Shown: piece by piece, positions 39,809 through 64,000 of the stretch | How positions within the stretch are numbered: position 1 is the stretch's first letter | Layout: the number at the start of each line of letters is the position of its first letter | NCBI RefSeq assembly: GCF_001570525.1 | Contig: NZ_BBXC01000014.1 | Location: 21,458 to 85,457, forward strand | Direction: 5' to 3' | Length of the DNA: 64,000 nucleotides | Source of the DNA: Herbidospora sakaeratensis | GTDB taxonomy: Bacteria; Actinomycetota; Actinomycetes; Streptosporangiales; Streptosporangiaceae | Program-made: the position numbers and the translations under genes | The notes under the pieces: model-generated | What the model was told of the DNA's origin: nothing | The model's database searches: none | The model's input: only the letters and a program-made list of their open reading frames with translations

Positions 39809-42800
39809 ATGGCGAACGAGGAGAAGCTTCGTGACTACCTCAAGCGGGTCACCACCGACCTGCACCAGACGCGCGCCCGCCTGCGCGAACTGGAGGAGGA
39901 GCGGCTCGAACCGATGGCCGTCGTCGGCATGGCCTGCCGGTTCCCCGGCGGGGTGGCCTCACCCGGCGACTTCTGGACGCTGCTGATCGCGGGCGCCGAC
40001 ACCGTCGCGCCCTTCCCCGCCGACCGCGGCGCCGAATGGGCGACCGTGTACGACGCCGACCCCGACGCGATCGGCCGGAGCTACGCCCGCGAGGGCGCGT
40101 TCCTCGACGGCGCGGCCGACTTCGACGCCCCCTTCTTCGGCGTCTCCCCGCGTGAGGCGCTGGCCATGGACCCGCAGCAGCGCTTGTTGCTGGAGACGTC
40201 GTGGGAGGCCCTGGAGCACGCCGGCATCGACCCGACGTCGTTGCACGGCACCGCCACGGGCGTGTTCGCCGGGCTGATCTACCACGACTACGCGGCCGGC
40301 GGCGTGGGCGACGTGGAGGGATACGTCAGCACCGGCATCTCGGGCGGCGTCGCGTCGGGCCGGGTGGCGTACACCCTCGGGCTGGAGGGCCCGGCGGTCA
40401 CCGTGGACACCGCCTGCTCCTCATCGCTGGTGGCGCTGCACCTGGCCGCCCAGGCGCTGCGCTCGGGGGAGTGCTCGCTGGCGCTGGCGGGTGGCGTGAC
40501 CGTGATGGCCCGGCCGGGCACCTTCGTGGAGTTCTCCCGGCAACGCGGCCTGGCCGCCGACGGCCGCTGCAAGGCGTATGCCGACGCGGCCGACGGGACC
40601 GGCTGGGGCGAGGGCGTGGGCGTCCTGGTCCTGGAGAAGCTCTCGGACGCCCGCCGCAACGGCCACCGCATCCTGGCCCTGGTGCGCGGCAGCGCCGTCA
40701 ACCAGGACGGCGCGTCCAACGGCCTGACCGCCCCCAACGGCCCCTCCCAGCAGCGGGTCATCGAGTCGGCGCTGGCCGGGGCCGGGTTGTCGGCGGGCGA
40801 GGTGGACGTGGTCGAGGGCCACGGCACCGGCACCCGGCTGGGCGACCCGATCGAGGCCGAAGCCCTGCTCGCCACCTACGGGCAGGAGCGTGACCACCCG
40901 GTGCTGCTCGGGTCGGTGAAGTCGAACATCGGGCACACCCAGGCGGCGGCCGGGGTGGCGGGCGTCATCAAGATGATCCAGTCGATGGCCCATGGGGTGG
41001 TCCCGGCGACCCTGCACGTGGACGCGCCCTCCTCCCACGTGGACTGGAAGGCGGGCGCCGTCGACCTGGTGACGGAGGCGACGCCCTGGCCGCGGACCGG
41101 CCGGCCGCGCCGTGCCGGTGTGTCGTCGTTCGGTTTCTCCGGGACGAACGCGCACGTCATCCTCGAACAGGCCCCCGCCGAGGAGCCCGCGCCGGGTGTC
41201 ACGCTTCCGGTGGTGCCCTGGCTGATCTCCGCTCGCAGCCGTGACGGTCTGGCCGCCCAGGCCGCCCGCCTGGCCGACTTCGTGTCGGCCCGCCCCGACC
41301 TGAACCCGGCCGACGTCGGCCGGTCGCTGGCGGAGTCGCGGTCGAGCCTGTCCCACCGGGCCTTCGTCGTCGGCACGAACCGGCACGAACTCCTCGCCGG
41401 CCTGGCCGACATGACCCCAACCGGCGTCGGCCAGCCGGGCAAGCTCGCGTTCGTCTTCACCGGTCAGGGTGCGCAGCGGGTGGGCATGGGCCGGGGCCTC
41501 TACCAGGCATATCCGGTGTTCGCGGAGGCGTTCGACGAGGTCTGCGAGAGGCTGGGCGGTTCGGCGATCGACGACCCCGAGCTGCTGAACCAGACGATGT
41601 GGGCGCAATCGGGCCTGTTCGCGGTCGAGGTGGCCCTGTTCCGCCTGCTGGAGTCGTGGGGCGTCACTCCGTCGATGGTGGCCGGTCACTCGATCGGTGA
41701 GCTGGCCGCCGCACATGTGGCCGGGGTGTGGTCGCTGGAAGACGCCTGCACGGTCGTGGCGGCGCGTGGCCGGTTGATGCAGGCGCTCCCGTCGGGTGGC
41801 GGCATGTTGTCGATCCGGGCGAGCGAAGCCGAAGTCCGCCAGGCCCTGATCGACGGCGTGGACATCGCGGCGGTCAACGGCCCCGACGCGGTCGTCGTCT
41901 CGGGCCCGATCGATCTGGTGTCCGCGCTGAGGGACCGGTTCGAGAACACCAGGCTGCTGCGGGTCTCGCACGCCTTCCACTCGGCCTTGATGGACCCGAT
42001 GCTGGCCGAATTCGCGCAGGTCACCGCCTCGGTGTCCTACAACCCGCCGCGTATTCCGCTGGTCTCCACGGTGACCGGGGAACCGGTGACGGCGACCGAC
42101 CCGGACTACTGGGTGCGTCAGGTCCGTGAGCCGGTCCGGTTCGCCGACGCCGTCGCCACGATGCGCGAGAGCGGCGTGCGGACCTTCGTCGAGATCGGCC
42201 CCGACGCGGTGCTCACCGCCCTGGAAGACGACTCCTGGATTCCCGCGCAGCGCCGCGACCGCGACGACGCGACCACCCTGGTCACCACCGTCGCGCGGCT
42301 GCACACCCGGGGGGCGGCGGTCGACTGGGCACGGTTCTTCGACGGCGCGGCCCGCGTCGACCTGCCCACCTACACGTTCACCCGCGAGCGCTACTGGCTC
42401 GACCCCGCCGCCGGGAAGGCCGACGTCACCGGCATGGGCCAGTCGGCCGCCGGGCACCCGCTGCTCGGCGCGACCGTCAGCCTCGCGGCGGGCGGCGGGC
42501 TGATGCTCACCGGACGTCTCGGCGTGGACACCCAGCCCTGGCTGGCCGACCACACGGTGGCCGGGCGGGTGATCGTCCCGGGGACGGCGCTGGTCGAGAT
42601 GGCGATCCGGGCGGGCGACGAGATCGGCGCGGCCCGGCTGGCCGAACTGGTCGTGGAGTCGCCGCTGGTGCTGCCCGCCACGTCCGGCGTCCGGGTCCAG
42701 GTCGTCGTCACCGCACTGGACGCGGGCCGCGGCGAGGTCGCCGTCTACTCCCAGGCCGAAGACGACGACGTCACCGGCGGCTGGACCCGGCACGCCGCCG

Positions 42801-45800: not shown

Positions 45801-48800
45801 TCGGCTGCCGGTTCCCCGGCGGCGTCGGCTCGGCCGACGAGTTCTGGGACCTGCTCTCCTCGGAGACCGACGCCGTGACCGGCTTCCCCCGCGACCGGGG
45901 GCCCGCCTGGGAGGGCGTCGTCGACCCCGACCCGGCCGCGCCCGGCAAGAGCTACGCCGGAACCGGCGGGTTCCTGCACGACGCCGGGGCGTTCGACGCC
46001 CCGTTCTTCGGCGTCTCCCCGCGTGAGGCGCTGGCCATGGACCCGCAGCAGCGGCTCCTGCTGGAGACCTCGTGGGAGGCCCTGGAGGACGCCGGCATCG
46101 ACGCCACCGGCCTGCACGGCAGCCAGACCGGCGTCTTCACCGGCCTGATCTACCACGACTACAGCACCGGCGGCCCGGTCCCCGAAGAGGTGGAGGGCTA
46201 CGTCAGCACCGGCAACTCGGGCGGCGTCGCGTCGGGCCGGGTCGCCTACGCGCTGGGCCTCGAAGGCCCCGCGATGACCGTCGACACGGCCTGCTCGTCG
46301 TCGCTGGTCGCCCTGCACCTGGCCGTGCGGGCACTCCGCGCGGGGGAGTGCTCCCTGGCCCTGGCCGGTGGGGCGACCGTCATGGCGACCCCGAACACCT
46401 TCGTGGAGTTCTCCCGCCAACGCGGCCTCGCCGCCGACGGCCGGTGCAAGGCGTACGCGGACGCCGCCGACGGGACGGGCTGGGGCGAGGGCGTCGGCGT
46501 CCTGGTCCTGGAACGACTCTCGGACGCCCGCGCCAACCGCCACCGGGTGCTCGCCGTGGTGCGCGGCACGGCCGTCAACCAAGACGGCGCGTCCAACGGT
46601 CTGACCGCCCCCAACGGCCCTTCGCAACAACGGGTGATCCGCACCGCCCTGGCCGACGCCGGCCTGTCGGCGGCCGAGGTCGACGTCGTCGAGGGCCACG
46701 GCACCGGCACCCGGCTCGGCGACCCGATCGAGGCGCACGCCCTCCTCGCCACCTACGGCCAGGACCGCGAGCATCCCGTGATGCTCGGGTCGGTGAAGTC
46801 GAACATCGGCCACACCCAGGCGGCGGCCGGAGTGGCGGGCGTCATCAAGATGATCCAGTCGATGGCCCGTGGCGTGGTCCCCGCGACGTTGCACGTGGAC
46901 GCCCCCTCCTCCCAGGTCGACTGGGACTCGGGCGCGATGACGCTGGTCACCGGCGCGACGGCCTGGCCCGAGACCGGCCGCCCTCGCCGCGCGGGCGTGT
47001 CGTCGTTCGGCTTCTCCGGCACGAACGCCCACGTCATCCTTGAACAGCCGCCGGTCGAGGAGCCCGCGCCCGGTGTCGTCCTTCCGGCCGTGCCCTGGCT
47101 GATCTCCGCCCGTAGCCGCGACGGTCTGGCCGCCCAGGCCGCCCGCCTGACCGAGTTCGTGTCGGCGCGGCCCGACCTGGACCCGGCCGACGTCGGATGG
47201 TCCCTGGCGACGACCCGTTCCAGACTCTCTCACCAGGCCGTCGTCGTCGGAGGCGACCGCAGCGAACTCCTCGCCGGGCTGGCCGACGTCACTTCGGTGA
47301 GCACCGGCCCCTCGGGCAAGGTCGGCTTCGTGTTCACCGGCCAGGGCGCGCAGCGGGTCGGCATGGGCCGGGGCCTGTATGAGGCGTATCCGGTGTTCGC
47401 CGACGCTTTCGACGCCGTCTGCGCCCGTCTGGACGATCACCTCGACGGTTCCGTGGCGGCGGTCGTGCACGGGAACGACCCCGATCTGCTCAACCAGACG
47501 ATGTGGGCGCAATCGGGACTTTTCGCCGTCGAGGTGGCCCTGTTCCGCCTGCTGGAGTCGTGGGGCGTCACCCCGTCGATGGTCGCCGGTCACTCGATCG
47601 GCGAACTCGCCGCCGCGCATGTCGCCGGGGTCTGGTCGCTCGAAAACGCATGTGCCGTCGTGGCCGCCCGAGGCCGGTTGATGCAGGCGCTCCCGCCAGG
47701 CGGGGCGATGCTCTCGATCCGGGCGAGCGAAGCCGAAGTCCGCAAGGCGCTGATCGACGGCGTCGACATCGCGGCGGTCAACGGCCCGGACGCGGTGGTC
47801 GTCTCCGGCCCCGCAAACCTGGTGTCCTCGCTGAGGGACCGGTTCGAGAACACCCGGCTGCTGCGCGTCTCGCACGCCTTCCACTCGGCTCTGATGGACC
47901 CGATGCTGGCCGAATACGCGAAGGTCACCGCCTCGGTGTCCGACAAGCAGCCGCGTATCCCGCTAATCTCCACGGTCACCGGCGAACCGGTGACGGCGAC
48001 CGACCCGGACTACTGGGTGCGGCAGGTCCGCGAGCCGGTCCGCTTCGCCGACGCCGTCGCCACGATGCGCGACAGCGGCGTCAGGACCTTCGTCGAGATC
48101 GGCCCCGACGCGGTGCTCACCGCACTGGCCGCGGACGACAGCTGGATCCCCGCCCAGCGCCGGAATCGCGACGAGGCCCGGACCCTCGTCTCGGCGGTCG
48201 GCCGTGTGCACGCCCGTGGCGGCGACGTCGACTGGGCCCGCTTCTTCCCGGGTGCGAACCGGGTCGGCCTGCCCACCTACGCCTTCGACCGGCGGCACTA
48301 CTGGCTGAACGCCGCCGGGACCCACGGCGACGCCGCCGGCCTGGGCCTCGAACCGTCCCGGCACCCGCTGCTGGGCGCGGCCGTGAACCTGCCGGCCAGC
48401 GGCGGCCTCGTGCTCACCGGCAGATTGTCCCTGAGCGCCCACCCGTGGCTGGCCGACCACGTCGTGGCCGGCAGGGTCGTGGTGCCGGGCACGGCCCTCG
48501 TGGAGATGGCGATCCGCGCCGGAGACGCGACGGGCCGGCCCCGGCTCGCCGAACTGGTCATCGAGGCCCCGCTGGTCGTGCCGCCCGAGGGCGGCGTCCG
48601 CGTCCAGGTCACGGCCGACGACGGCGCGGTGGCCGTCTACTCCCAGCCGGACCACGACGACCCATCGGGTGCCTGGACCCGCCACGCCACCGGCCTCCTC
48701 GACGTGGCCGACCCGTCGGAAACCCGTCTGACTCCGTGGCCCCCGGAAGGGGCGGCGGCCCAGGACGTCGACGCCTGCTACCCCGCACTGGCCGCCGCCG

Positions 48801-51800
48801 GACTGGACTACGGCCCGCTCTTCCGGGGAGTCAAGACCCTCTGGCGGCGCGGCGACGAGGTCTTCGCCGAGATCGCCCTCGCCGACGACGTCCAGGTCGC
48901 CGGGTTCGCCCTGCACCCGGCCCTGCTCGACGCCGCCCTCCACCCCATCTCCGCCACCCGCGCGGCCGAGGGCCCGTTGTTGCCGTTCGCCTGGACCGAC
49001 GTCGTCGTGCACGCGACCGGAGCCCGCGCCGCCCGGGTCCGGCTGGCCCCCAGCGGAGACGGGGTGTCGCTGACCCTGGCCGACGAGAGCGGCGCGCCGA
49101 TCGCGACGGTCGGCGCACTGGCCCTTCGTCCCCTCCCGGCGGCCCAGGCGGTCACCGTCGCCGACGAGGCGCTGTTCACCCTCGACTGGGTGCCCCCGCG
49201 CGCCACCGAGCCCGTGCACACGCCGGTCACCGTCATCGCCTGCCCTGCGTCCGGAGGCGGCGACGTCGCCGAGGAGGCCCGTGCGGCGGCCGCCCGCCTG
49301 CTCGGCGTCGTGCGGGAGTGGCTGGCGGCCGAGAACCCGGGCCGCCTGGTCGTGGTGACCGAACGCGCGGTCGACACCGGCTCCGGCGGGCTCCTCGTCG
49401 ACGTGACCGGCGCGGCCGTCTGGGGACTGGTCCGCGCCGCCGCCGCCGAGAACCCCGGCCGCCTCGCCCTCGTCGACCTCGACGTCCCCCTGTCGGCGGA
49501 CGGCGCGCAGGAACTGGTGCGGGCGGCGGCGGCCGCCGGCGAGAGCCAGATCGCCGTTCGCGGAGGCCGCCCGCTGGTGCCGCGCCTGGCCCGTCCCGAT
49601 AAGGCTCTGGCCCTGCCCAGCGGCAGTTGGCGGCTGGACTTCACCGAGCGCGGCACCCTGGAGAACCTGACCCTGACGAGTGCCGACAACGCGGTGTTGA
49701 AGGCCGGGGAGGTGCGGGTCGGGCTGCGAGCCGGCGGGGTCAACTTCCGGGATGTCCTGAACGTGCTGGGCATGTACCCCGGCGACGCGGGCCAGTTGGG
49801 CCTCGAAGGCGCGGGTGTCGTGCTGGAGACCGGACCTGAGGTGACGGCCTACAAGCCCGGTGACCTGGTGATGGGCCTGTTCTCGGGTGCCTTCGGTCCG
49901 GAGGCGGTGACGGATCAGCGTTTGCTCGCCCGAGTCCCCGACGGCTGGACTTTGGCCGAGGCGGCGGCCGCCCCGGTGGTGTTCCTGACCGCGTATCACG
50001 CGCTGGTCGAACTGGCCGACCTGCGACCCCGCGAATCCGTCCTCATTCACGCCGCCGCCGGTGGTGTCGGCATCGCGGCGGTGCAACTGGCCCGCCACCT
50101 GGGCGCCGAGGTGTTCGGCACCGCGAGCCCGTCGAAATGGCCGGTCCTGCGCGAACTCGGCCTGCCCGAGACCCACGTCGCGTCGTCGCGCACCCTGGAT
50201 TTCGAGACCGCGTTCCCTTCCGTGGACGTCGTGCTCGATTCGTTGGCGGGGGAGTTCGTCGACGCCTCGCTGAGGCTGGCTGCCGGTGGCCGATTCATCG
50301 AGATGGGCAAAGCCGACATCCGCGACGCCGAGCAGGTCGCCCGCGACCACGACGGCCTGCAGTACCAGGCGTTCGACCTGCTCGAACTCGACCCCGATCG
50401 CATCGGCCGCATGCTCGCTGTGCTGACGGAGCTGTTCGCCCGGAAGGTGCTGACGCCCCTCCCGGTCGCCTGCTGGGATGTGCGCCGAGCTCCGGAGGCG
50501 TTCCGGCACCTCAGCCAGGCCCGCAACGTCGGCAAGGTCGTGCTGACCATGCCGACCCGCGACCAGGGCGGCACCGTTCTGGTGACCGGAGCATCGGGTG
50601 CCCTGGGCGGTCTGGTCGCCCGTCACCTGACCGCCGACCGTCTCGTGCTGCTCTCCCGCCAGGGACCCGTCGGCACCGGCGCGCTCGCTGCCCAGCTCGC
50701 CACTCAGGGAGTCGACGTCGAGGTGTGCGCCGTGGACGTCGCCGACCGCGACCCGCTCGCCGCCGTGGTCGCCGGGATCCCGGACCTGCGGGGTGTCGTC
50801 CACGCCGCCGGAATCCTCGACGACGGCCTGATCGCATCGCTCACCCCCACGGCGCTGGACGCCGTCATGCGCCCCAAGGTCGACGGCGCCTGGCACCTCC
50901 ACGAACTGACCCGGCACCTCGACCTCGACCGGTTCGTGCTCTTCTCCTCGATCGCCGGGATCTGGGGCAACCCCGGCCAGTCGGCCTACGCGGCGGCCAA
51001 CACCTTCCTGGACGCCCTGGCCGCCCACCGCCGCAACGAGGGCCTGCCCGCGGTCTCCCTGGCCTGGGGACCCTGGACCGGCGGCATGACCGGCCACCTC
51101 ACCCCGGCCGACTGGCAGCGCATGGCCGCCCAGGGCTTGCGCCCCCTCTCCGACGCTGACGGCCTCGCCCTGCTCGACGCCGCCGCCCACCTGCCCACGG
51201 CCCTGGCGGTCCCGGCCCGGCTCGACCCGGCCGTGTTCCGCCGCCGGGACGGCGACGTGCCCGCGCTCATGTCCGGCCTGGTCACCCGCACCACCACCCG
51301 CCGCACCGCAGGGCCCGTCGCCACGAGCGGTCTGGCCGGCCTCCCGGCGGCCGAACGCGAGGAGGCCGTCAGAGAGCTGGTAATGGCCCAGGCGGCGGTC
51401 GTGCTCGGCATGTCCGGGACGGCCTCGATGGACCCCGGCCGCTCGTTCCGTGAGCTGGGTTTCGACTCGCTGACCGCCGTCGAACTGCGCAACCGGCTCG
51501 GCGAGGCGACCGGCCTGCGACTCCCCGCCACGCTCGTCTTCGACCATCCGACGCCGTCCGCGCTGGTCGCCCACGTCCTCACCGAACTGGGCGGCCCGAT
51601 CGCCGACCCGTTGCTTTCGGGCGTGCCGAGGGCGGTGGACGCCGACGACCCGGTGGTGATCGTCGGCATGGGCTGCCGGTTCCCGGGCGGCGTCTCCTCC
51701 GCCGCCGAGTTCTGGACCCTGCTCGCCGCCGGCGCCGACACCGTGTCGGGCTTCCCTGCCGACCGGGGCCCGGAGTGGGGGAGCGTCTTCGACGCCGACC

Positions 51801-54800
51801 CGGAGGCGGTCGGCCGGAGCTACGCCCGCGAGGGCGCGTTCCTCGACGGCGCGGCCGACTTCGACGCCCCCTTCTTCGGTGTCTCCCCGCGTGAGGCGCT
51901 GGCCATGGACCCGCAACAACGGCTCCTGCTGGAGACCTCGTGGGAGGCCCTGGAGCACGCCGGCATCGACGCCACCGGCCTGCACGGCAGCCAGACCGGC
52001 GTCTTCACCGGCCTGATCTACCACGACTACAGCACCGGCGGCCCCGTCCCCGGCGACGTCGAAGGGTATGTGAGCACCGGCATGTCCGGCGGCGTGGCCT
52101 CGGGCCGGGTCGCCTACGCGCTGGGTCTGGAGGGCCCGGCGATGACCGTCGACACGGCGTGTTCGTCGTCGCTGGTGGCGCTGCACCTGGCCGTGCGGGC
52201 GCTGCGGTCGGGCGAGTGCTCCCTGGCGCTCGCCGGGGGAGTCACGGTGATGGCCACCCCCGGCATCTTCGTCGACTTCTCCCGCCAGCGCGGCCTCGCC
52301 GCCGACGGCCGCTGCAAGGCGTATGCCGACGCGGCCGACGGCACCGGCTGGGGCGAGGGCGTCGGCGTCCTGGTCGTCGAACGGCTCTCCGACGCCCGCG
52401 CCAACGGCCACCGGGTGCTGGCCGTGGTGCGCGGCACGGCCGTGAACCAGGACGGCGCGTCCAACGGCCTGACCGCCCCCAACGGCCCTTCGCAGCAGCG
52501 CGTCATCCGGACCGCCCTGGCCGACGCGGGCCTGTCGGCGGCCGAGGTCGACGTCGTCGAGGGCCACGGCACCGGGACCCGGCTCGGCGACCCGATCGAG
52601 GCCCAGGCCCTGCTCGCCACCTACGGCCAGGATCGGGAGCACCCGGTGCTGCTCGGGTCGGTGAAGTCGAACATCGGCCACACCCAGGCCGCCGCGGGCG
52701 TCGCCGGCATCATCAAGATGGTCCAGGCCATGAACCACGGCGTCGTCCCGGCGACCCTGCACGTGGACGCGCCCTCGTCGCAGGTCGACTGGGAGTCGGG
52801 CGCGGTCACCCTGGTCACCGGCACGACGGACTGGCCGGACACCGGCCGCCCCCGCCGCGCGGGCGTGTCGTCGTTTGGCTTCTCCGGCACGAACGCCCAC
52901 GTCATCCTTGAACAGGCGCCCGCCGAGGAGCCTGCCCCCGGTGCCGCCCTGCCGGCCGTGCCGTGGCTGATCTCGGCCAAGACCGAGGCCGGGCTGACCG
53001 CCCAGGCCCGGCGGCTGCACGACTTCCTGACCGAGCGGCCCGACCTCGACCCGGCCGACGTCGGCCGTTCACTGGCCACGACCCGCACCCACCTCGGCCA
53101 CCGCGCCGCGATCGTGGGCGCCGACCGGGACGAACTGCTCGCCGGCCTCGCCGACCCGAGGCCGGTGAGCACGGGCGACCCGGGCAAGCTCGCCTTCGTC
53201 TTCACCGGCCAGGGCGCGCAGCGGGTCGGCATGGGCCGCGGTCTCTACCAGGCATATCCGGTGTTCGCGGCGGCGTTCGACGAGATCTGCGAGAGGCTGG
53301 GCGGTTCCGCGATCGACGACCCCGACCTGCTGAACCAGACCAGGTGGGCGCAGTCAGGACTGTTCGCCGTCGAAGTCGCCCTGTTCCGCCTGCTGGAATC
53401 GTGGGGCGTCACCCCCTCGATGGTGGCCGGTCACTCGATCGGCGAACTCGCCGCCGCCCATGTAGCCGGAGTGTGGTCGCTCGAAGACGCCTGCACGGTC
53501 GTGGCCGCCCGAGGCCGCTTGATGCAGGCGCTCCCGCCCGGCGGGGCGATGCTCTCCATCCGCGCGACCGAAGCCGAAGTCCGCGCGGCGCTGATCGACG
53601 GCGTCGACGTCGCGGCCGTCAACGGACCGGACGCCGTGGTCGTCTCCGGCCCGCTCGACCTGGTGTCCTCGCTCAAAGACCGGTTCGAGAACACGCGCCT
53701 CCTGCGCGTCTCGCACGCCTTCCACTCGGCCCTGATGGACCCGATGCTGGCCGAATACGCCCAGGTCACCGCCTCGGTGTCCTACGCGCCACCGCGGATC
53801 CCGCTGGTCTCCACGGTCACCGGCGAACCGGTGACCGCGACCGACCCCGACTACTGGGTGCGCCAGGTCCGCGAGCCGGTCCGGTTCGCCGACGCGGTCA
53901 CGACGATGCGCCGCAGCGGCGTGAAGACGTTCATGGAGATCGGCCCCGACGCGGTGCTCACCGCCCTGGCAGACGACTCCTGGATCCCCGCCCAGCGCCG
54001 CGACCGCGACGACGCGCCCGCCCTGGTCTCGGCGGTCGCCGAGCTGCACGCCCGGGGCGGCGACGTCGACTGGGCCGGGTTCTTCCAGGGCGCGAACCGG
54101 GTCGACCTGCCCACCTACGCCTTCACCCGCGAGCGCTACTGGCTGCGCGGCACCCGCGCCCCGGCCGACCCGGCCGAGCTCGGCCTGTCGACCGCCGGGC
54201 ATCCGCTGCTCGGCGCGGCCGTCGACCTGCCCGGCGACGGCGGCCTGGTGCTCACCGGCCGGTTGTCCCTGGACGCCCAGCCCTGGCTCGCCGACCACAC
54301 GGCCGCCGGACGGGTCGTCGTCCCGGAGACGGCCCTGATCGAGATGGCCCTCCGGGCCGGTGACGAGACGGGACACGCCCGCCTGGGCGAACTCCACGTC
54401 CACACCCCGCCGGTCGTGCCCGGCTCCGGCCCCCTCCAGCTGAGGGTCGTCGTCGCCCCGCCCGACGACGACGGCCGCCGGGACCTGACCGTGCACTCCC
54501 GCCCGGAGAACGGCTCCTGGACGCACAACGCCACCGCCGTCCTCACCTCCGCCACCGCCGAACCCGACGACGCCGACGGGGAGTGGCCGCCGCCCGGCGC
54601 GCGACCGCAGCCCGACCCGGCCGACCGGCGCGTCCGGGCCGTGTGGCGGCGCGGACCGGAACTCTTCGCCGAGCTCACCCTCGACGCCGACGTCACCGGC
54701 TTCGCCCTGCACCCCGCCCTCCTCGACGCCGTCCTGCCCCTGACCGGGACGGCCGGCGACCCGCCGATGCTCGCGTCCACCTGGACCGACGTCGTCGTGC

Positions 54801-56719
54801 ACGCCACCGGAGCCGCCGACGTGCGGGCCCGGCTGACGCCCGTGCCGGGCGTCGACGCGGTCTCGGTGACCCTCTCCGACGCGACCGGCCGGCCGGTGGC
54901 CATCGTGGGATCGGTGCACCGCCGCCCGCTCACCGAGGCCGAACTGCCCGCCGCGACCGCCGACGCGCTGTTCGAACTCGACTGGATCCCGGCCGCCCCC
55001 GGCGTGCGGGGCGGGCCCGTCCCCGACACGGTCGTCGTGGACGTCCGGCCGCCCGAGGGCCCGGCCGACGCCGCGGCCAGGGCGGCGGCGCGGGACACGC
55101 TGGCCACGTTGCGCGAGCGGCTGGCCGCACCGGCGATGGCCGGAACCCGGCTGGTCGTGCTCACCCACCGGGCCGTCGCGACCGGGCCGGAACCGGTCGA
55201 CGTCGCCGGCGCGGCGGTGTGGGGGCTGGTCAGGGTGGCGCAGTCGGAGTACCCCGGCCGGATCGTGCTGCTCGACGTGGACACGCCGGAGGCCGCCGAC
55301 CAGGCGGTCCCGGCCGCCGTGAGCTCGGGCGAGGCCCAGCTCGCGGTCCGGGACGGCCGTCTCCTGGTCCCGCGCCTGGTCCCGTCCACCCCCGCCGCGA
55401 CCGCACCGGCCGCACGCCCGACCGGAACCCTGCTGATCACGGGCGCCTCCGGGGCCCTCGGCGCGCTGGTCGCCCGGGGCCTTGCGGCCGAACGGATCGA
55501 GCTGCTCTCCCGGCGCGGACCCGGGGCGGCGGGAGTGGCGGCCGTCGCCGCCGACGTCGCCGGACGGGGGGTGACCGTGCGGGTCACCGCCTGCGACGCC
55601 GCCGACCGCGCCGGCCTGGCCGCCGTGCTCGCGGGCATCCCGGCCGGTACGCCGCTGCGCCGCGTGGTCCACGCCGCGGGCGTCCTGGACGACGGCATCG
55701 TCGAGTCGCTCACCCCCGACCGGGTCGACGCCGTGTTGCGCCCGAAGGTCGACGGGGCGTGGAACCTCCACGAGCTGACCCGCGACCTCGACGCGTTCGT
55801 GGTGTTCTCCTCGCTGGCCGGGATCTGGGGCAACCCCGGCCAGGCCGCCTACGCCGCCGCCAACACCTTCCTCGACGCCCTGGCCGCCCACCGCCGCTCC
55901 CTCGGCCTGGCCGCCACCTCGCTGGCCTGGGGCCCGTGGCGGCTCGACGGGCAGGGCATGGCCGACCGCATCGACGACGCCGACCGGCGTCGCATGGCCC
56001 GCACCGGCCTGCGGCCCATCACCGGCCCCGACGGCCTCGCCCAGCTCGACGCGCTGCTCGCCCGCGCCCCGGAAGGCCGCCCGGCGCTGCTGGTCCCCGT
56101 CCACCTCGACCTCGGCGCCCTGCGCCGCCACAACGGCGCCGGCCTGCCGCCGGTGTTGTCGGGCCTGACCGGGGTCCGGACGGCCCGAAGGACGGCCGGC
56201 CCGGCCGCGCCCGAGCGGAACGAGGCGGCCCGCCTGGCCGCGCTGCCCGCGCCCGCCCGCGAACGCGCCGTGCGGGAGCTGGTCAGGGCGCAGGCCGCGC
56301 AGGTGCTCGGGCTGCCGGGCGCGGACGACGTCCACGCCGAGAAGTCGTTCCTCGACCTGGGCCTGACCTCGCTGACCGCCCTGGAGCTGCGCAACCGGCT
56401 CAGCGGCGTCGCCGGGCTGACCCTGCCGGCCAGCGTGATCTTCGACTACCCGACGCCGGGCGCGCTCGCCGGATACCTGTGCGCGAACGTCGCCCCGGCC
56501 GGGACGGCGCCCGTCCTCGACGGCCTCGACCGGCTGGCCGCCCAGCTCGCCGAGGTCGGCCCCGACGGCGACCGGCGGGCCGAGATCGTCATCCGCCTGG
56601 AGGGCCTGCTCGCCGACTTCCGGTCCAAGACCAGCGACAACGCCGCCGCCTACCGGGAGCTCTCGACGGCCGGCGACGACGAGATGTTCGCCCTGATCGA
56701 CCGCGAACTGGGCATCTGA
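39809..56719 (+). CDS. Type I PKS: modules 4 and 5 (KS-AT-DH-ER-KR-ACP) and module 6 (KS-AT-degenerate DH-KR-ACP)
   Basis: 5636 aa. A charged docking coiled coil ([10 protein letters not shown], residues 4-31) opens the protein and fits the C-terminal docking domain of the preceding PKS. Module 4: KS Cys203, AT about 547-820, DH His915, ER 1328-1632, KR from 1638 (VDD), ACP Ser1931. Module 5: KS Cys2162, AT from 2507, DH His2884, ER 3274-3582, KR from 3589 (LDD), ACP Ser3887. Module 6: KS Cys4118, AT from 4463, DH-like region 4797-5110 with His4830 but a damaged remainder, no ER, KR from 5205 (LDD), ACP Ser5521 in GLTSL. The C-terminal docking domain ends [14 protein letters not shown]. All ATs carry HAFH. 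It starts 21 nt after the previous stop with only a weak purine-rich RBS (39791-39797). Expected chemistry: two saturated C2 units, then one 3-hydroxy unit. The C-terminal dock does not match the start of the terminal PKS, so another PKS outside the window is expected next. Confidence 0.96.
41450..42240 (+). repeat. AT-domain DNA repeat, copy 2 (pair with 29150-29960)
   Basis: Module 4 AT segment matching module 2 across gene boundaries. Codon choices such as TAT and TTG are shared in both copies, which argues for recent homogenisation. Confidence 0.7.
43790..45330 (+). repeat. ER-KR DNA repeat, copy 1 (pair with 49625-51165)
   Basis: About 1.5 kb covering ER and KR of module 4 is nearly identical at DNA level to module 5. 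Large blocks match including silent sites, for example the stretch encoding [16 protein letters not shown] and the KR core. Both copies use more T-ending codons than the surrounding DNA. Confidence 0.85.
45775..51590 (+). other. Module 5: KS-AT-DH-ER-KR-ACP
   Basis: KS Cys2162, HAFH in the AT, DH His2884 with intact H-x3-G-x4-P, YGPLF and [12 protein letters not shown] with [10 protein letters not shown] with ILDDG and SAYAAAN, ACP GFDSL at Ser3887. Confidence 0.9.
49625..51165 (+). repeat. ER-KR DNA repeat, copy 2 (pair with 43790-45330)
   Basis: Module 5 copy of the ER-KR segment. The DH regions upstream of the two copies differ clearly, so the repeat boundary falls near the start of the ER. 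Confidence 0.85.
51650..56480 (+). other. Module 6: KS-AT-degenerate DH-KR-ACP
   Basis: KS Cys4118 and AT HAFH are intact. The DH keeps its N-terminal histidine motif (His4830) but has Pro-Glu for Pro-Gly right after it. It lacks the YGPxF segment (about 15 residues shorter between the WPPxGA and WRRG landmarks than its sisters) and has Pro4977 instead of His in the D-x3-H acid motif at Asp4973. There is no ER between the DH remnant and the KR. The KR (VLDDG, AAYAAAN) looks active, so a hydroxyl should remain. Confidence 0.85.
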
Positions 56720-56776: not shown

Positions 56777-59770
56777 TCAGACCTCGGCGACCTCGCGGGC
56801 GATCACCGCCACGTTCGCCACGGTGGGCTCCGCGATGACCCGCCCCAGCCGGTTCATGAACTCGGCCTCCGCCGCCGGGGGCAGCACCTCCCGGCACACG
56901 CCGGCCAGCATGTTGAGCAGCGCGACCGAGTCGCCGCCGAGGTGGTGGAAGTCCGCGTGCGGGTCGATGCGGTCGGCCTCGACGCCCAGCACCCGCGCCC
57001 ACACCTCGCCGACCTCGCGTTCGAGCCGGTCGCCGCCGTCGGCCGACGCCGGGCCTGAACCGGTCGCGGGACCGGCGAAGGGGTCGGGCAGGGCGCGCAC
57101 GTCGACCTTGCCGCTGATGCCGTAGGGGATCTCGTCGACGACGAAGACGGCGGCCGGGACCATGTAGGACGGCAACCGGTCGGCCGCGTGCGCCGTCAGG
57201 TCGGCGACCGCCACCCCGGTCCGGCTCAGGACGTAGCCGCACAACGCCTTCGACCCGCCCGCCCGGGTGCGGGCCACCACGACGGCGCGGTCGACCGCCG
57301 GGTGCTCCTCCAGGACGGCCGCCACCTCGGCGGGCTCGACCCGGTGGCCGCGGATCTTGAGCTGGTCGTCGATCCGGCCGAGGAACTCCAGCCCGCCGTC
57401 CGGCAGCCGCCGGGCCAGGTCGCCGGTCCGGTACGTCCGGGTGCCGTCGACCAGGCGGGGGAACCGCTCCTCGTCGAGGTCGGGCCGGCCCAGGTAGCCC
57501 CGGGCCAGCTGCACGCCGGCCAGGTACATCTCGCCGACCTCGCCCTCGGCGACGAACCGGCGGGTCGGGTCGAGCAGGTGGACCTGCGTGTTGCGGGCCG
57601 GCACGCCGATCGGGACGGTGCTGCGGCCGCCGTCGCGCGCCGGGTCGAAGGTGTGCGCGGTGCAGCCGATGGTGGCCTCGGTGGGGCCGTACTCGTTGAT
57701 GACGCGGCAGCCGGGCCCGAACATCTCCTGGGCGCGGGCGGCGACCTCGACCCGGAGCTGCTCGCCGACCACCACGATGCTGCGGAACCCGGTGGGCGCG
57801 ATCTCCAGGCGGCCGATCAGCTCCAGGTGGGAGGGGGTGAGGTTGAGCATGGTCGCGCCCGACTCCATCAGCAGCCGCCGCAGCGTCAGGTGGTTGGGCT
57901 GGTCGCGGACCAGCACCACGCCGCCGCCGGTGATCAGCGGCATGAAGATGGACGTCCCCGACACGTCGAACGACAACGACGTCAGCAGGGGCAGTCGCGT
58001 GTCGGCGTCGACCCCGAACTCCTCGACGCCCCAGTGGAGGTAGTTGAGCAGGCTGCCGTGCTCGATCTGCACGCCCTTGGGCTTGCCGGTGGAGCCGGAG
58101 GTGTAGAGCACGTACGCCAGGTCGTCGGCGGCCGTCTCCGGGTCGGGGGCCCCGTCGGGCGTCGCGGTGACGGCGTCGTCGAGGTCGAGCACGGCGCAAC
58201 CGGCCGGGAAGGCGTCGCGGGCGTCGTGCGGGGCCTGTGCCAGGCAGTGCTTGACCCCCGCGTCCGAGAGCAGGTCGGCCAGCCGCGAGTCGGGGTGCAG
58301 CACGTCGAGCGGCAGATAGGCGGCCCCGGCCCGCAGGATGCCCCAGATGGCGGCCACCGCGGCCGGGGTGCGTTCGGCGAGCACCCCGACGACGTCGCCG
58401 CGACCGGCGCCCCGGGCGCGCAGCCCGGTCGCCACCGCGTCGGCCCGCCGGCTCAGCTCGGCGTAGCTCATCGTGCCCTCCGGCCACGACAGCGCCAGCG
58501 CGTCGGGGGTCAGCTCGGCCTGGCGGCGGAACAGCTCCAGGAGGGACGCCGTGGAGGAGGGCCGCCAGGTGTCGTTGGCGGCGGGGTAGCGGTCGGCCTG
58601 GGGCGACAGCGCCTCGACGAGCCGGTCGAGCAGGTCGTCCATGCGCTCGGCCGCGCCCGGCACGTCGCGCCACGTCGCCACGAGCTCGGTGCGGCCGGCC
58701 GTCTCGACGACGTCGAGGCTCACCGGCGCGCCCGAGACCAGCGACCCCAGCGTGTACATCGCCTCGGCCCGGAACCCGCCGGCGCTGTAGTCGGCCAGGT
58801 CGACGAAGCCCAGGCTGGTGACGATGCCCGAGGCCAGGTAGCGGTGCCTCTTGGCGGCCGACGCCTCGTACCGGGTGAAGATCTCGCGCACGATCGTGCG
58901 GGGCAGCCGGCGCATCGCCGGGCTGGTGCGGCTGAGCAGCTCCCGGTTTTCCGCCAGGCCGGTCAGCAGCGCCTGGTGGACCTCCTCCCAGTCGCCGTCG
59001 GGCTCGACGGTCAGCGGGAGGATCTGCGACAACCAGGCGGTCGAGCGCAGCTCGGGCCGGTGGCGGCGCAGGTCGACCGAGATCAGGAACCGGCCCGGGA
59101 CCGGCGGGTCGGCCGACGCGGCGACGGCCGCGACCACCCGGGCGGTGGGGGCGGCGCAGACGCCGTCGACGCTGCGCCGGCGCCAGATCAGCCCGTGCCG
59201 ACCGGGCGGGACCGGCGCCATCGAGGTGGCGTGCACCAGGTCCTTCTCGCCGGGCGGGATCGGCGGCAGGCCGGTGGGCCGCAGGTGCCGGAGGAAGTCG
59301 TCGCTGTTCCAGTCGGAGGTCGCGCCGACCGGGTCGACGCCGCGCAGCACCCGGAAGACGTCGGCGATCCACAACAGCAGGCCGCGGGCGTCGGTGACGC
59401 CGTGGAAGGCGCGGAAGACCAGCGTCGTCGGCCGGACCCGGCGGCCGGGCACGAGCAGGACCTCGCAGGTCGGGCCGCCGTCGTAGAGCGCCGTCTGCAG
59501 GGCGGGCTCCGACAGCAGGTCGTGGCCCGGATCGACGTCCAGGACCCGCACCTCGGGAGCGACGCCGCTGTCGACCCAGCGCCGCCCCTTCTGCCGCAGC
59601 CGCATGCCGGGGCAGGCCTCCGAGGCCGCCTCGACCGCGTGGACGAGGGCCTCGACGCCCAGGTCGCCGTCGCCTTCGAAGACGTGCTGGATGACGTTGG
59701 GCCCCATGCCGAGATAGAGCCATTCGATCGGGGACATGAGCCGTGAGTACGGCGTGGCCAAGGGTTTCAC
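56777..59770 (-). CDS. NRPS-like protein: condensation-like domain, adenylation domain, peptidyl carrier protein
   Basis: 997 aa from GTG 59770, chosen because AGGAG (59777-59781) lies 6 nt upstream; a longer frame from 59845 lacks this. Domains: condensation-like about 15-400, with FHGVTDA near residue 122-128 in place of HHxxxDG (second His and Asp kept). Adenylation about 425-890: YTSGSTGKPKG near 555, NEYGPTEATI, YRTGDLARR, RIDDQLKIRGHR and GISGKVD with the catalytic Lys near 885. Carrier protein about 915-980 with LGGDS (Ser near 947). There is no thioesterase, reductase or epimerase. Reading the specificity pocket by eye gives D-V-T-E-V-G-E-I-G-K, somewhat like ornithine or Asn/Asp codes; this is weak. 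It could load an amino acid for transfer to or from the polyketide, or serve an unrelated pathway. Its promoter region is shared with the divergent lipoprotein gene. Confidence 0.92.
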   Translation of the reverse strand: MKPLATPYSRLMSPIEWLYLGMGPNVIQHVFEGDGDLGVEALVHAVEAASEACPGMRLRQKGRRWVDSGVAPEVRVLDVDPGHDLLSEPALQTALYDGGPTCEVLLVPGRRVRPTTLVFRAFHGVTDARGLLLWIADVFRVLRGVDPVGATSDWNSDDFLRHLRPTGLPPIPPGEKDLVHATSMAPVPPGRHGLIWRRRSVDGVCAAPTARVVAAVAASADPPVPGRFLISVDLRRHRPELRSTAWLSQILPLTVEPDGDWEEVHQALLTGLAENRELLSRTSPAMRRLPRTIVREIFTRYEASAAKRHRYLASGIVTSLGFVDLADYSAGGFRAEAMYTLGSLVSGAPVSLDVVETAGRTELVATWRDVPGAAERMDDLLDRLVEALSPQADRYPAANDTWRPSSTASLLELFRRQAELTPDALALSWPEGTMSYAELSRRADAVATGLRARGAGRGDVVGVLAERTPAAVAAIWGILRAGAAYLPLDVLHPDSRLADLLSDAGVKHCLAQAPHDARDAFPAGCAVLDLDDAVTATPDGAPDPETAADDLAYVLYTSGSTGKPKGVQIEHGSLLNYLHWGVEEFGVDADTRLPLLTSLSFDVSGTSIFMPLITGGGVVLVRDQPNHLTLRRLLMESGATMLNLTPSHLELIGRLEIAPTGFRSIVVVGEQLRVEVAARAQEMFGPGCRVINEYGPTEATIGCTAHTFDPARDGGRSTVPIGVPARNTQVHLLDPTRRFVAEGEVGEMYLAGVQLARGYLGRPDLDEERFPRLVDGTRTYRTGDLARRLPDGGLEFLGRIDDQLKIRGHRVEPAEVAAVLEEHPAVDRAVVVARTRAGGSKALCGYVLSRTGVAVADLTAHAADRLPSYMVPAAVFVVDEIPYGISGKVDVRALPDPFAGPATGSGPASADGGDRLEREVGEVWARVLGVEADRIDPHADFHHLGGDSVALLNMLAGVCREVLPPAAEAEFMNRLGRVIAEPTVANVAVIAREVAEV

Positions 59771-59940: not shown

Positions 59941-59949
59941 GTGAGCGAT

Positions 59950-59972
59950 CAACTGCTGCACGGGTGCAGTTG
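59950..59972. promoter_or_regulatory. Dyad symmetry, candidate operator in the divergent promoter region
   Basis: CAACTGC and GCAGTTG form a perfect 7-bp inverted repeat with a 9-nt spacer. An inner alternative, CTGCAC-GG-GTGCAG (59956-59969), is also perfect. The dyad overlaps the -35 of the plus-strand promoter candidate and lies just upstream of the minus-strand one, where a regulator could act on both genes. Confidence 0.4.
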
Positions 59973-59997
59973 AACGCCGCTTTCCCAGCTATATCAT
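59970..59997 (+). promoter_or_regulatory. Candidate plus-strand promoter for the copper monooxygenase-like lipoprotein
   Basis: TTGAAC (59970-59975) and TATCAT (59992-59997) are 16 nt apart in the most AT-rich part of this intergenic region. The predicted leader is about 35-40 nt to ATG 60042. Confidence 0.45.
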
Positions 59998-60041: not shown

Positions 60042-61217
60042 ATGACGACACGGAAGGGCCTATTGCGGAGGGTCGCTCCGGCGGCGATGGCGGTCGTGGT
60101 CGCCGCGTGCTCCAGTTCGACCGCCGCCACCGGCGGGGCGCTGACGAGTGGGCGGGGCGGGCACCACGCGACCACCTCCCTCCCGCCCGACGCGCTGCCG
60201 CTGCGGGCCGGTGAGCAGTTCCTCACCCTCCCCATGGAGAAGCCCTACATCCCGATGCCGCCCAGCGGCGGCACCGACGAGTACCGCTGCCTGCTGATCG
60301 ACCCCGGCCTGCTCAAGCCGGCCTACCTGACGGGCAGCCAGTTCGCGCCCTCGAACACCGAGATCGCCCACCACGCCAACATCTACGTGGTCGCCCCCGC
60401 GAACGCGGCCAAGGCCCAGGCGAAGGACGCCGCGAGCCCCGGCCAGGGCTGGACCTGCTTCGGCGCCGACGGCCTGGACACCCAGCCGCCCTCGGCCTGG
60501 GTCGACACCTGGACGCCCGGCGCCAGGGAGACCCTGCTCGACGGGAACCTCGGCTACCGGATCGAACCCGGCAGCCTGGTCATCCTCCAGATCCACTACA
60601 ACCTGCTCGCCACCGACGGGAAGCCGGGCGCGTTCGACCAGTCCAGCGTCCGGTTGCGGCTGACCGAGGGCGACGCCGGCACCAAGGCGCTGACGGCCGT
60701 CCCGCTGATGGCGCCGATCGAACTGCCCTGCGCCCCCGACGAGTCGGGCCCCCTGTGCGACCGCGAGGCCTCGCTGGCCGACGTCGCCAAGCGGTTCGGC
60801 CCCGAGGTCGCCGGCACCGAGACGCAGCTGGTGCGGGCGTGCAACGGCGGCACCCCGGTCCCGGGCGACACCCAGCGGTGCGACACCCCGATCCCGACCG
60901 AGATGACCATCTACGCCGGGCGCGGCCACATGCACCTGCTGGGCCGCTCGATCAAGGTCGAGCTCAACCCCGGCACCCCCGGCGCGCAGGTCCTCCTGGA
61001 CGTCCCGGAGTTCGACTTCGACGACCAGCAGCACGTGCCGCTGCCCGCGCCGGTGCAGGTCAGGCCGGGCGACACGGTCCGCATCACCTGCACCCACGAC
61101 GCCGCGCTGCGCACCGTGCTCCCGGCCCTGAAGAAGCTCCCGCCACGCTACGTCGTCTACGGCGACGGCACCAGCGACGAGATGTGCATCGGGCTGATGA
61201 CCGTTTCGATGCCCTGA
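60042..61217 (+). CDS. Secreted lipoprotein of the copper type II, ascorbate-dependent monooxygenase family (PHM/DBM-like)
   Basis: 391 aa. The N-terminus is a lipoprotein signal: basic MTTRKGLLRR, a hydrophobic stretch, then the lipobox VAAC, so the mature protein should be anchored outside the cell membrane. The copper ligands of peptidylglycine/dopamine monooxygenases can be placed in order: His110-His111 (AHHAN), His185 (QIHYN, like the QVHYG of PHM), His296 and His298 (GHMHLLG, like HTHHLG) and Met381 (TSDEMC, the DEMC of PHM). Several cysteines suit an oxidised extracellular fold. Enzymes of this family hydroxylate a C-H bond using O2, two copper centres and ascorbate; here the substrate is unknown. 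It is transcribed away from the NRPS gene with a shared promoter region and ends before a hairpin. A tailoring role on the cluster product outside the membrane is possible but unproven. Confidence 0.85.
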   Translation: MTTRKGLLRRVAPAAMAVVVAACSSSTAATGGALTSGRGGHHATTSLPPDALPLRAGEQFLTLPMEKPYIPMPPSGGTDEYRCLLIDPGLLKPAYLTGSQFAPSNTEIAHHANIYVVAPANAAKAQAKDAASPGQGWTCFGADGLDTQPPSAWVDTWTPGARETLLDGNLGYRIEPGSLVILQIHYNLLATDGKPGAFDQSSVRLRLTEGDAGTKALTAVPLMAPIELPCAPDESGPLCDREASLADVAKRFGPEVAGTETQLVRACNGGTPVPGDTQRCDTPIPTEMTIYAGRGHMHLLGRSIKVELNPGTPGAQVLLDVPEFDFDDQQHVPLPAPVQVRPGDTVRITCTHDAALRTVLPALKKLPPRYVVYGDGTSDEMCIGLMTVSMP

Positions 61218-61275: not shown

Positions 61276-62445
61276 TCAGGAGCGGTGGCACGTCACGATG
61301 GCGTTGCGCAGCTCATAACCCATCAGCTCGTCGGTCCAGCACAGGTCGGGCCGCCGCGCCAGCCGGATGCCCGGCACCCGCAGGAGCCGGTCGAGGAAGA
61401 CCCGCGTCTCGTTGAGGGCCACCTGCGCCCCGGGGCAGCGGTGGCTGCCGTCGCCGAAGCTGAGGTAGGAGCCGGCCGTCTTCACCCGCCGGGCCCGGTC
61501 GGGGTCGAGGGTGTACGGGCACGCGCCGACGCTCGCCTCGTCGAGGTTGGCGGCCCGGATGTCCAGCACCAGGCTCTCCCCGCTGGTCACCGAGCCCGAG
61601 TCGGTCACCGTGTCGGCGGTGACCCGGCGGGCGATCATGTTGACCACCGGGTCGAGCCGCATGATCTCCTCCAGGATGGCGATCTGGTCGGTGTCGTCGG
61701 AGTCGAGGAACCTCTGGCGCAGCGCGGCGTCGTCGAACAGGTGCCAGGCCGCCATCACGACGAACTCCCGCGTCGTGATCATCCCGGCGACGGCGTAGGT
61801 CATGCACTCGACGAGGATCGCCTTCTCCGGGTAGCCCTCGTCGAGCAGGTGCGAGATGACGTCCTCGCGCCGCCGCGCCCTGCGGGCCTCGATGGCCGGC
61901 CGCACGTCGTTCAGCAGGAACCTCAGGCCGTGGAAGGTGGCGGCCAGCTGCCCGAAGGGACGCCGCCAGCGGCTCATCAGCGGCAGGCGCAGGCCGATGA
62001 GGTTCTTCTCGATCCGCTCGGCCATCGCGGCCTGGTCGCTCTCGGTCAGCCCGACGATGTCGGCGGCGACGGTCACCGCGAGCTCGAAGCTCATCCGGTC
62101 GAGCCGGCCCTCGCCGCGCTCCCGCAACCGGGCGAGCAGGCCGTCGGTGGCCTCCTCCATGACCGTGCGATAGCGGGTGCTGATGGCCTTGGGGGTGAAG
62201 AACCGGACGATCGCCTGCCGCTTGCGCTTGTGCGGCTCGCCGTCCAGGAAGAACACCGAGGTGTACGCCGGGTCGCCGGTCACCTCGCCGGTGGCCCCGG
62301 CGCCCGACTGCCGGGTGGCGTTGCCCCGCAGCAGCTCGCGGGCGAAGGCCAGGCTGCCGACGACGCGGGTGTCGGGACCGATGGTGATGCGCTCGGCCGC
62401 CAGGGCGGCCGACTTGCGGTCGTCGCGAGTGCTCGGAGCGGTCAT
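61276..62445 (-). CDS. Cytochrome P450 (bacterial class, probable tailoring hydroxylase)
   Basis: 389 aa, soluble, typical bacterial P450 length. The heme-binding loop FGDGSHRCPG carries the axial Cys337. The I-helix has AGMITTRE in place of the usual AGxxTT, with the Thr pair kept. The K-helix ExxR is EIMR, and LDPVVNMIARR follows. A ferredoxin and reductase encoded elsewhere would be needed. No clear ribosome site precedes ATG 62445, and a strong hairpin (62476-62508) lies just upstream, so expression may depend on readthrough from the hydrolase gene or a promoter within that short gap. Location near a PKS suggests oxidation of the polyketide, but the family does not reveal the substrate. 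Confidence 0.92.
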   Translation of the reverse strand: MTAPSTRDDRKSAALAAERITIGPDTRVVGSLAFARELLRGNATRQSGAGATGEVTGDPAYTSVFFLDGEPHKRKRQAIVRFFTPKAISTRYRTVMEEATDGLLARLRERGEGRLDRMSFELAVTVAADIVGLTESDQAAMAERIEKNLIGLRLPLMSRWRRPFGQLAATFHGLRFLLNDVRPAIEARRARRREDVISHLLDEGYPEKAILVECMTYAVAGMITTREFVVMAAWHLFDDAALRQRFLDSDDTDQIAILEEIMRLDPVVNMIARRVTADTVTDSGSVTSGESLVLDIRAANLDEASVGACPYTLDPDRARRVKTAGSYLSFGDGSHRCPGAQVALNETRVFLDRLLRVPGIRLARRPDLCWTDELMGYELRNAIVTCHRS

Positions 62446-62520: not shown

Positions 62521-64000
62521 TTACCGGACGGTGGCCGCCGCGAGGGCGCCGCTGAAGCCGGCGACCGGCGGGGCCGCCGACTTGGCCGCCGGGGCGGCCG
62601 GGTTCGGCAGGGGAGCGGCCGGGCACTTGAGGTCGGAGGTGTTACCGGCCACGCGGGCCGGCAGGGTGCCGTTGAGCAGGTACTCGACGATCGACCGGCC
62701 GGGGGAGCACGACTCCGGCGTGGCCGTCTCGGCGGGGGTGGGGCCGCTCTCGACCAGCACCGCCTTCGGGAACAGCTTGCGGACGGCGAGGCTGCCCTCG
62801 TAGGTGGAGCTCGGGTCGATGGTCCGGTCGAGCACCATCAGCACCGACGGGGTCTTGGGCCCGCCGACGGCGGCCGGCCGCTGCGGCGGCACGCTCCACG
62901 ACTGGCACGAGGCGACGAACCACATGTCGGCCCAGGCCGCGAACGGCACCTTCCGGTAGTCGCGCTCGGTGACGCGCAGCCAGGTGTCCCAGTCCCTCGG
63001 CCACGGGGCGTCGGTGCACATGGTCGCCAGCGCCATGGCCTGGTTGTTGTCGGTGACCGTGGGGTAGTTGGCGTCGTACACCTGCTTCAGGAGCGCGGTG
63101 TCGCCGGTGTTCACGACCGCCGAGAAGAGCGTGGCCAGCTCCTGCCAGTGGTTGGTGTTGTACGCCAGCAGGAAGACGTCGGTCCACACCGCCGGGCCGA
63201 AGACGCCCCCCGCCGGCTTCTTGGCGAGCTTGGCCAGCGTGTCGTAGTACTTCTTCCTGACCGCGGCCTCGGTGGTGCCGAGATGGTAGATCGAGTCGTG
63301 CTTGGCCGTCCACGCCGAGAACGCCGCGAGGTTCTGGTCGAGCGGGTAGTTCTGGTTGAGGTTGTAGCCGAACCAGGCGTGCCGGGGGTCGACGGCGCTG
63401 TCGATGACCATCCGGCGCACCCGCGCCGGGAACATCGTGCCGTACACCTGGCCGAGGTAGGCGCCGTACACGTAGCCGTAGTAGTTGAGCTGCTCCTGGC
63501 CGAGCGCCTTGCGCAGGCTGTCCAGGTCGTTGGCGGTGTGCGCGGTGGTGGCGTGCCGGAGCAGGTCGCTGCGGGTGCGGGCGCAGGCGGCCGAGTAGTC
63601 CTTGGCGACCTTGATCTGCGCGGCGAGGTGACGCGGCGACGACGGCTCGTAGGCCATGCGGTCGTAGCCGTTGATGCCGGGGTCGCAGCTGAGCGTGGGC
63701 TCGCTGGCGCCGACGCCGCGCGGGTCGAAGCCGACCCAGTCGTAGGTGCCGCTGACGAACTCGGGCAGCAGCTTGCCGACCGACGCCTGGCCGAGACCGG
63801 AGCCGCCGGGCCAGGTCAGGTTCACCACCATGACGCCCTGGTAGGAGGCCTCGTCGGAGGTGTGCTTGAGCCGCGAGACCGCGACCTTGATCTTCTTGCC
63901 CTGAGGGCGGGCGTAGTCGAGCGGCACGACCAGGTGGCCGCACTCGCCGCCGAGGAACTGCAGCCCGTTGGTGCACGGCGACCACTCGATGGGCGGGGGC
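62521..64000 (-). CDS. Partial tripeptidyl-aminopeptidase-like alpha/beta-hydrolase homologue with lost catalytic residues
   Basis: The gene enters from the right edge, so the N-terminus and any signal peptide are missing; 492 codons are visible up to TAA 62521. The visible part fits the Streptomyces-type tripeptidyl aminopeptidase/SlpD-E family: ECGHLVVPLDYARP, a WPGGSG oxyanion-type loop, WVGFDPRGVGAS, DLDSLRKALG, and a C-terminal TAP-like segment ending VEYLLNGTLPA. The nucleophile elbow, however, reads GYVYG, with Val (GTG, 63469-63471) where these enzymes have Ser. The usual C-terminal GHG histidine is also absent: the stretch after VLVESG reads PTPAETATPES. The acid region TIDPSST is kept. 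It may be a secreted non-catalytic homologue with a binding role, or an enzyme using other residues. It is probably separate from the PKS operon. Confidence 0.85.
   Translation of the reverse strand, partial: PPPIEWSPCTNGLQFLGGECGHLVVPLDYARPQGKKIKVAVSRLKHTSDEASYQGVMVVNLTWPGGSGLGQASVGKLLPEFVSGTYDWVGFDPRGVGASEPTLSCDPGINGYDRMAYEPSSPRHLAAQIKVAKDYSAACARTRSDLLRHATTAHTANDLDSLRKALGQEQLNYYGYVYGAYLGQVYGTMFPARVRRMVIDSAVDPRHAWFGYNLNQNYPLDQNLAAFSAWTAKHDSIYHLGTTEAAVRKKYYDTLAKLAKKPAGGVFGPAVWTDVFLLAYNTNHWQELATLFSAVVNTGDTALLKQVYDANYPTVTDNNQAMALATMCTDAPWPRDWDTWLRVTERDYRKVPFAAWADMWFVASCQSWSVPPQRPAAVGGPKTPSVLMVLDRTIDPSSTYEGSLAVRKLFPKAVLVESGPTPAETATPESCSPGRSIVEYLLNGTLPARVAGNTSDLKCPAAPLPNPAAPAAKSAAPPVAGFSGALAAATVR

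Follow-up and report, generated by a model that had tools for sequence, protein, structure and literature searches.

A PHM/DBM-fold lipoprotein gene in a giant type I PKS cluster of Herbidospora sakaeratensis and its possible part in finishing the product

The copper monooxygenases PHM and DBM are known mainly from animals. A gene for a lipoprotein of this type, lying in an actinobacterium between a polyketide synthase (PKS) gene set and a cytochrome P450 gene and divergent from an NRPS-type gene (C-A-PCP), raises the question of whether such an enzyme can take part in a biosynthetic pathway. The window, i.e., the whole stretch of 64,000 nucleotides that was analyzed, and its flanks carry a giant type I PKS cluster. 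The features of the window are collected in Table 1.

Table 1. Features of the window that bear on the PHM-like gene (positions in the window).
Feature	Position	Strand	Basis or remark
Type I PKS, C-terminus like a releasing thioesterase	1125..15275	+	sequence reading
3-hydroxyacyl-CoA dehydrogenase, carrier protein, acyl-CoA dehydrogenase, FkbH-like: likely (hydroxy)malonyl-ACP extender genes	15257..18615	+	
Type I PKS, 4 AT motifs, first probably a loading module	18651..39788	+	
Type I PKS, 3 AT motifs, docking-like C-terminal tail	39809..56719	+	
C-A-PCP protein: condensation-fold domain, adenylation domain (DVTNVVEIGK), carrier domain	56777..59770	-	
StrR-type palindrome GATCAACTG-N11-CAGTTGAAC, divergent C-A-PCP/PHM promoter	59947..59975		
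PHM/DBM-fold copper monooxygenase-like lipoprotein, 391 aa	60042..61217	+	
Signal peptide and lipobox (VVAAC, Cys23)	60042..60110	+	sequence reading
Copper ligands H110-H111 (= PHM H107/H108)	60369..60374	+	88/88 sequences
N113	60378..60380	+	window and Kineosporia proteins only; Ile in 84/88
Copper ligand H185 (= PHM H172)	60594..60596	+	88/88 sequences
R294, column of the PHM Arg two before HxH	60921..60923	+	Arg 3/88, Ala 75/88
Copper ligands H296-x-H298 (= PHM H242/H244)	60927..60935	+	88/88 sequences
Y373	61158..61160	+	window and Kineosporia proteins only; Trp in 85/87
Copper ligand M381 (= PHM M314)	61182..61184	+	87/87 sequences reaching that column
Cytochrome P450 of the cluster	61276..62445	-	67.5% to Kineosporia, 84% to G034
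Alpha/beta hydrolase (TAP-like), signal-peptide-like N-terminus	62521..64000, gene continues to about 64155	-	

Fold and copper ligands

The analysis confirmed that the product of 60042-61217 is a PHM/DBM-fold lipoprotein in which all six copper ligands are present, and copper binding is predicted. Ligands, lipobox and fold agree with the sequence-only reading of a copper protein of the PHM/DBM type that carries a lipoprotein signal. The C-terminal domain model Cu2_monoox_C scored 31 bits (cut-off 23) and the N-terminal model Cu2_monooxygen 19.2 bits (cut-off 30). Fold comparison placed the window protein in the two-domain PHM fold. At E<=0.01, the two models matched 63 and 55 of 64 homologues, respectively, and 58 of the 64 have a lipobox-like motif within their first 45 residues. 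No NCBIfam family matched the window protein.

Identity to PHM (1phm, 6ala) is about 20%. The window protein differs from PHM in being a lipoprotein and in the residues that follow the ligand Met, and no lyase partner was found. DBH (4zel) is longer, at 578 compared to 391 aa, and has a DOMON domain, given as residues 57-173 in the accessible part of PMC3197665. The window protein instead has a lipoprotein anchor and a core that starts near residue 50, and it gave no DOMON match at E<=1, which sets it apart from DBH proper. The carboxylate-binding residues of PHM are R240, N316 and Y318. The column of R240 holds an Arg in the window protein, and counting from the ligand Met places I383 and L385 at the N316 and Y318 positions. 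The three PHM residues were not found in the accessible parts of PMC6123673, PMC10303134 and PMC3197665. Amidating enzymes are treated in PMC12636437, as far as its accessible part goes, and no word beginning with "bacteri" occurs in PMC6529398.

The cluster, its counterparts and a common palindrome

From their predicted products, the four genes at 15257-18615 resemble a pathway to hydroxymalonyl- or methoxymalonyl-ACP. This gene set has no O-methyltransferase next to it, which suggests a hydroxymalonyl extender unit.

Kineosporia rhizophila has nearly the same gene order, with 17 gene pairs (the PKS at 1125-15275 excluded) of 53-80% identity, including 64% for the PHM-like protein. In the Kineosporia cluster, the discrete thioesterase gene has another position and orientation, and two additional genes occur. 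With a simple pattern, 34 AT motifs were counted there in ten PKS ORFs, on a contig that is cut at its edge. A third cluster was found via the P450 in G034, a genome of the same family as the host. It is 68-84% identical on 11 genes and closer to the host cluster than the Kineosporia cluster is. As a general cluster marker, the P450 was rejected, since it matches in 15 of 394 class genomes besides the host and four of these contexts (61-62% identity) lack such a cluster.

In G034, C-A-PCP and PHM are both absent between the PKS and the P450, so that the pair is present in two of the three clusters, while the hydrolase and exporters are kept. A short-chain dehydrogenase-like gene (by eye; C18, L124 about 18258 to 19025) stands in the place of the pair, behind a retained promoter that aligns with the host divergent promoter at a score of 97.5, the highest of 500 shuffles being 69.5. 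No C-A-PCP orthologue was found elsewhere in G034, where the best match (45%) covers the A-PCP part of a larger NRPS, and the sole PHM copy of this genome lies on C7 in different surroundings. Because Kineosporia, the most distant of the three, carries both genes, it is simplest to assume that G034 lost them together; a replacement or two gains are possible.

The intergenic gap between C-A-PCP and PHM is 271 bases and contains an inverted repeat with three mismatches to the StrR consensus (1 found, 0.04 expected). The consensus is not given in the accessible part of PMC6985074. Among the 149 loci examined, the pattern TCRACTG-N11-CAGTYGA was found only in this cluster, in the host and in G034. 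One host site lies in the divergent C-A-PCP/PHM promoter, and the other two are upstream of the discrete thioesterase gene and of the small gene preceding the ABC exporters. The G034 sites have corresponding places, and the retained promoter there carries the palindrome. For the thioesterase gene and the small gene, the matching upstream palindromes are at L076:1874-1898 and L076:2754-2778 in the host and at L125:4330-4354 and L125:5383-5407 in G034. Judging from these positions, the sites in the two genomes likely make up a small regulon.

In the 8.6-Mb host genome, the palindrome occurs at four places, three of them inside the cluster, and the reversed pattern at none. The fourth place (C30:49917) lies within a long ORF and was taken as chance rather than as a regulatory site. 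In 215 kb of the Kineosporia contig, a single place at <=1 mismatch was found, and this is in the C-A-PCP/PHM promoter. Outside the palindrome, the Kineosporia and window promoters do not align, 140 of 500 shuffles reaching the same score. In the scanned G034 loci, one place with one mismatch lies inside the PKS, and none at <=1 mismatch was found in 948,795 bases of other loci. This distribution is the strongest sign that the PHM gene belongs to the pathway. The gene has a conserved place and a promoter signal in common with cluster genes, as a tailoring enzyme of the cluster should. The ParB/StrR-like protein of the cluster might bind the palindrome. The ParB/StrR-like nature of this regulator (L076:445-1398) is weakly indicated by its Kineosporia orthologue, and the host protein's own sequence gave no such indication. 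Collectively, the synteny, the palindrome and the absence together with C-A-PCP from the third cluster support the earlier placement of the gene in a PKS cluster that also encodes an NRPS-type protein.

A widespread family and two altered residues

PHM-like matches were found in 19 of 120 genomes (host and relatives) and in 47 of 394 class genomes, counts that include the host and weak or partial matches in G113, G260, G308, G384, G297 and G426. Lipoproteins of this family are therefore widespread in actinobacteria, and the rarity in bacteria that the sequence-only reading implied is not supported. From named records, 51 PHM loci of 9-21 kb each were taken, 52 with the second copy of the host. 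A PKS probe matched one of the 52, that of Kineosporia, and an adenylation-domain probe matched nine. The adenylation match adjoins the PHM gene in four loci (Kineosporia and three Nonomuraea) and lies 8-9 kb away in five Herbidospora-type loci. Neither PKS nor NRPS sequence was present in the other 43 loci, and many copies have recurrent neighbors, either PhoH/YbeY-like, RlmN-like or F420 oxidoreductase-like genes (all three named by eye) or YibE/F. Since most homologues are without biosynthetic neighbors, the general function of the family is probably something other than biosynthesis.

The window protein might likewise keep an envelope function of this wider family and merely be located in the cluster, which we consider unlikely. 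The 43 loci agree with such a location by chance, and so do the Nonomuraea homologues (L034, L039, L040), which are divergent beside NRPS genes and have neither N113, R294 nor Y373. Their sister L035 has the same right flank with no NRPS gene there, showing that adjacency to NRPS can be accidental, and this trio weakens such adjacency as proof of function. A chance location is harder to reconcile with synteny across different bacterial families, with the common palindrome and the absence together with C-A-PCP in G034, and with the fact that the host already has a family copy on C23.

A tree that excluded L064 (79 aa) and six sequence duplicates joins the cluster-borne proteins of the window and Kineosporia in one clade with support of 100/99. 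The second host copy (G000:C23:119364-120473) nests among the Herbidospora proteins, with which it has neighbor genes in common, and apart from the cluster copies, while in Kineosporia rhizophila the cluster-borne copy is the sole one. Five genomes of the host genus have PHM sequences identical to those of named Herbidospora species, which fits a Herbidospora host. The C23 copy is of the same subfamily as the window protein, with 55% identity and the lipobox and all ligands in both. However, lipoproteins of the C23 type have steady, non-biosynthetic surroundings, and carry Ile at 113, Trp at 373 and mostly Ala at 294. The survey of homologue contexts thus went against a biosynthetic role for the family, while the case for the window copy stands on its clade, its promoter and two residues.

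These two residues are among four changes (I113N, A158T, W373Y and L383I) that the window and Kineosporia proteins share at columns that are at least 90% conserved. The maximum was three in 754 other pairs of 58-72% identity, but these control pairs are interdependent and come mostly from larger clades, which lowers their counts. Among the 19 other mutual-best pairs, one shares six changes and one four, and A158T recurs in L025/L026, another sister pair. The cluster pair therefore does not share exceptionally many changes for sister proteins; this agrees with a chance location, and an excess of shared substitutions was rejected as proof of a new function. N113 lies two residues and Y373 eight residues from a copper ligand; both are unique to the cluster pair among 88 sequences and may line the active pocket. 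R294 is common to both cluster proteins and one other of the 88.

Three further observations concern the homologues. The other PHM copy of the host (L078:8712-9842) adjoins a YibE/F membrane protein, an arrangement also seen in five named Herbidospora loci. The nearest non-cluster homologues (L025:11292-12263 and L026:6476-7546) have a gene for a DoxX-like membrane protein (by eye) behind them, a possible electron source for the copper enzyme. The sister pair L117 and L118 exceeds the cluster pair with six shared changes at conserved columns, and none of these is directly beside a copper ligand.

The C-A-PCP partner and possible roles of the enzyme

The N-terminal part of C-A-PCP has no Pfam match but the fold of a condensation/acyltransferase domain (best match AzeD at 2e-19, followed by Cy, C and E domains and PapA5; model pLDDT 80.7), and retains H123 and D127 of the xHxxxD motif. 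The A-domain code is DVTNVVEIGK in the host copy and in both Kineosporia copies, and DLTKIGEIGK in a homologue in G423. The former is unlike the glycine code, and the latter resembles the Asn code. C-A-PCP is unlikely to end the polyketide chain, because the PKS at 1125-15275 has a thioesterase-like end. In C-1027 biosynthesis, the A, PCP and C parts SgcC1/C2/C5 transfer an amino acid onto a polyketide hydroxyl group. C-A-PCP may act in a similar way, with the difference that the parts are fused in one protein here. As an obligate partner of PHM, C-A-PCP was rejected, since three of the five places with homologues (Kineosporia C56, G423 and G252) have no PHM nearby. The second C-A-PCP of Kineosporia (L144/L145, G120:C56:263541-266519) is 66% identical to the window copy, with the same A code, and adjoins ABC-transporter-like genes; neither a PKS nor a PHM gene lies in the 40 kb examined there.

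These features bear on a PHM-like amidation, in which C-A-PCP would attach glycine or a similar residue whose carboxylate stays free, and the copper enzyme would hydroxylate the alpha carbon of that residue to yield an amide. The Arg before HxH, which in PHM binds the peptide carboxylate, is present in both cluster proteins and in one other of the 88. However, the A code, identical in three homologues, is not the glycine code, so that the amidation-type cleavage proposed earlier is not supported, and the code of the G423 homologue resembles that for Asn. By count from the ligand Met, Ile and Leu sit where PHM has Asn and Tyr, no lyase is among the annotated cluster genes, and a releasing thioesterase seems to be part of the PKS itself. 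We therefore regard amidation as very unlikely.

Our preferred reading, which we believe about as much as we doubt it, is that the pathway has recruited an extracytoplasmic, lipid-anchored copper monooxygenase that works together with C-A-PCP in finishing a giant macrolide. C-A-PCP would activate an amino acid, its condensation-fold domain may hand this to the polyketide, and an ABC exporter would move the product out. The PHM/DBM-fold enzyme, with two predicted single-copper sites, would then act as a late tailoring enzyme, hydroxylating a C-H bond after export with O2 and a reductant, most likely within the amino-acyl part or beside it. Several points count against this reading: only two clusters carry the pair, C-A-PCP also occurs without PHM, most homologues have no biosynthetic neighbors, the number of shared changes is not exceptional, and the Kineosporia and window promoters align at the palindrome only. 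A more specific and less likely version is that a PHM-fold enzyme serves as a bacterial natural-product finisher that is co-regulated with C-A-PCP and oxidizes the exported amino-acylated macrolide. Changes at residues 113, 294 and 373 would fit its pocket to a polyketide substrate with a carboxylate, and the reaction may be an oxidative N-dealkylation.

NapU and BerkD are secreted oxidoreductases by which antibiotics are completed extracellularly (PMC9854587). The likeness is one of working and lies in the extracellular oxidation of a nearly finished product; the accessible part of that paper makes no link to the PHM fold. The same precedents, together with an extracytoplasmic enzyme near a secreted hydrolase, would also fit self-protection, in which the copper enzyme would serve resistance, by making the compound active or inactive after export, and would not build its structure. 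However, the G034 cluster retains the hydrolase and exporters without the copper enzyme, and no evidence indicates a toxic product, which makes self-protection improbable.

Searches of the open-access literature showed no PHM-fold enzyme from bacteria that acts in biosynthesis, except for a remark on myxothiazol in the accessible part of PMC9396620. If the preferred reading holds, copper-dependent C-H hydroxylation outside the cell would be added to the ways in which polyketides are finished. A pathway-tied PHM copy and a related cluster without PHM offer a natural comparison, which makes the question of the substrate testable for this bacterial family.

Elsewhere in the cluster, the secreted hydrolase of the host (L076:1-213 with window 62521-64000) is rich in His behind the signal peptide (HHGGHHGGQH), and the G034 and Kineosporia versions are without this stretch.
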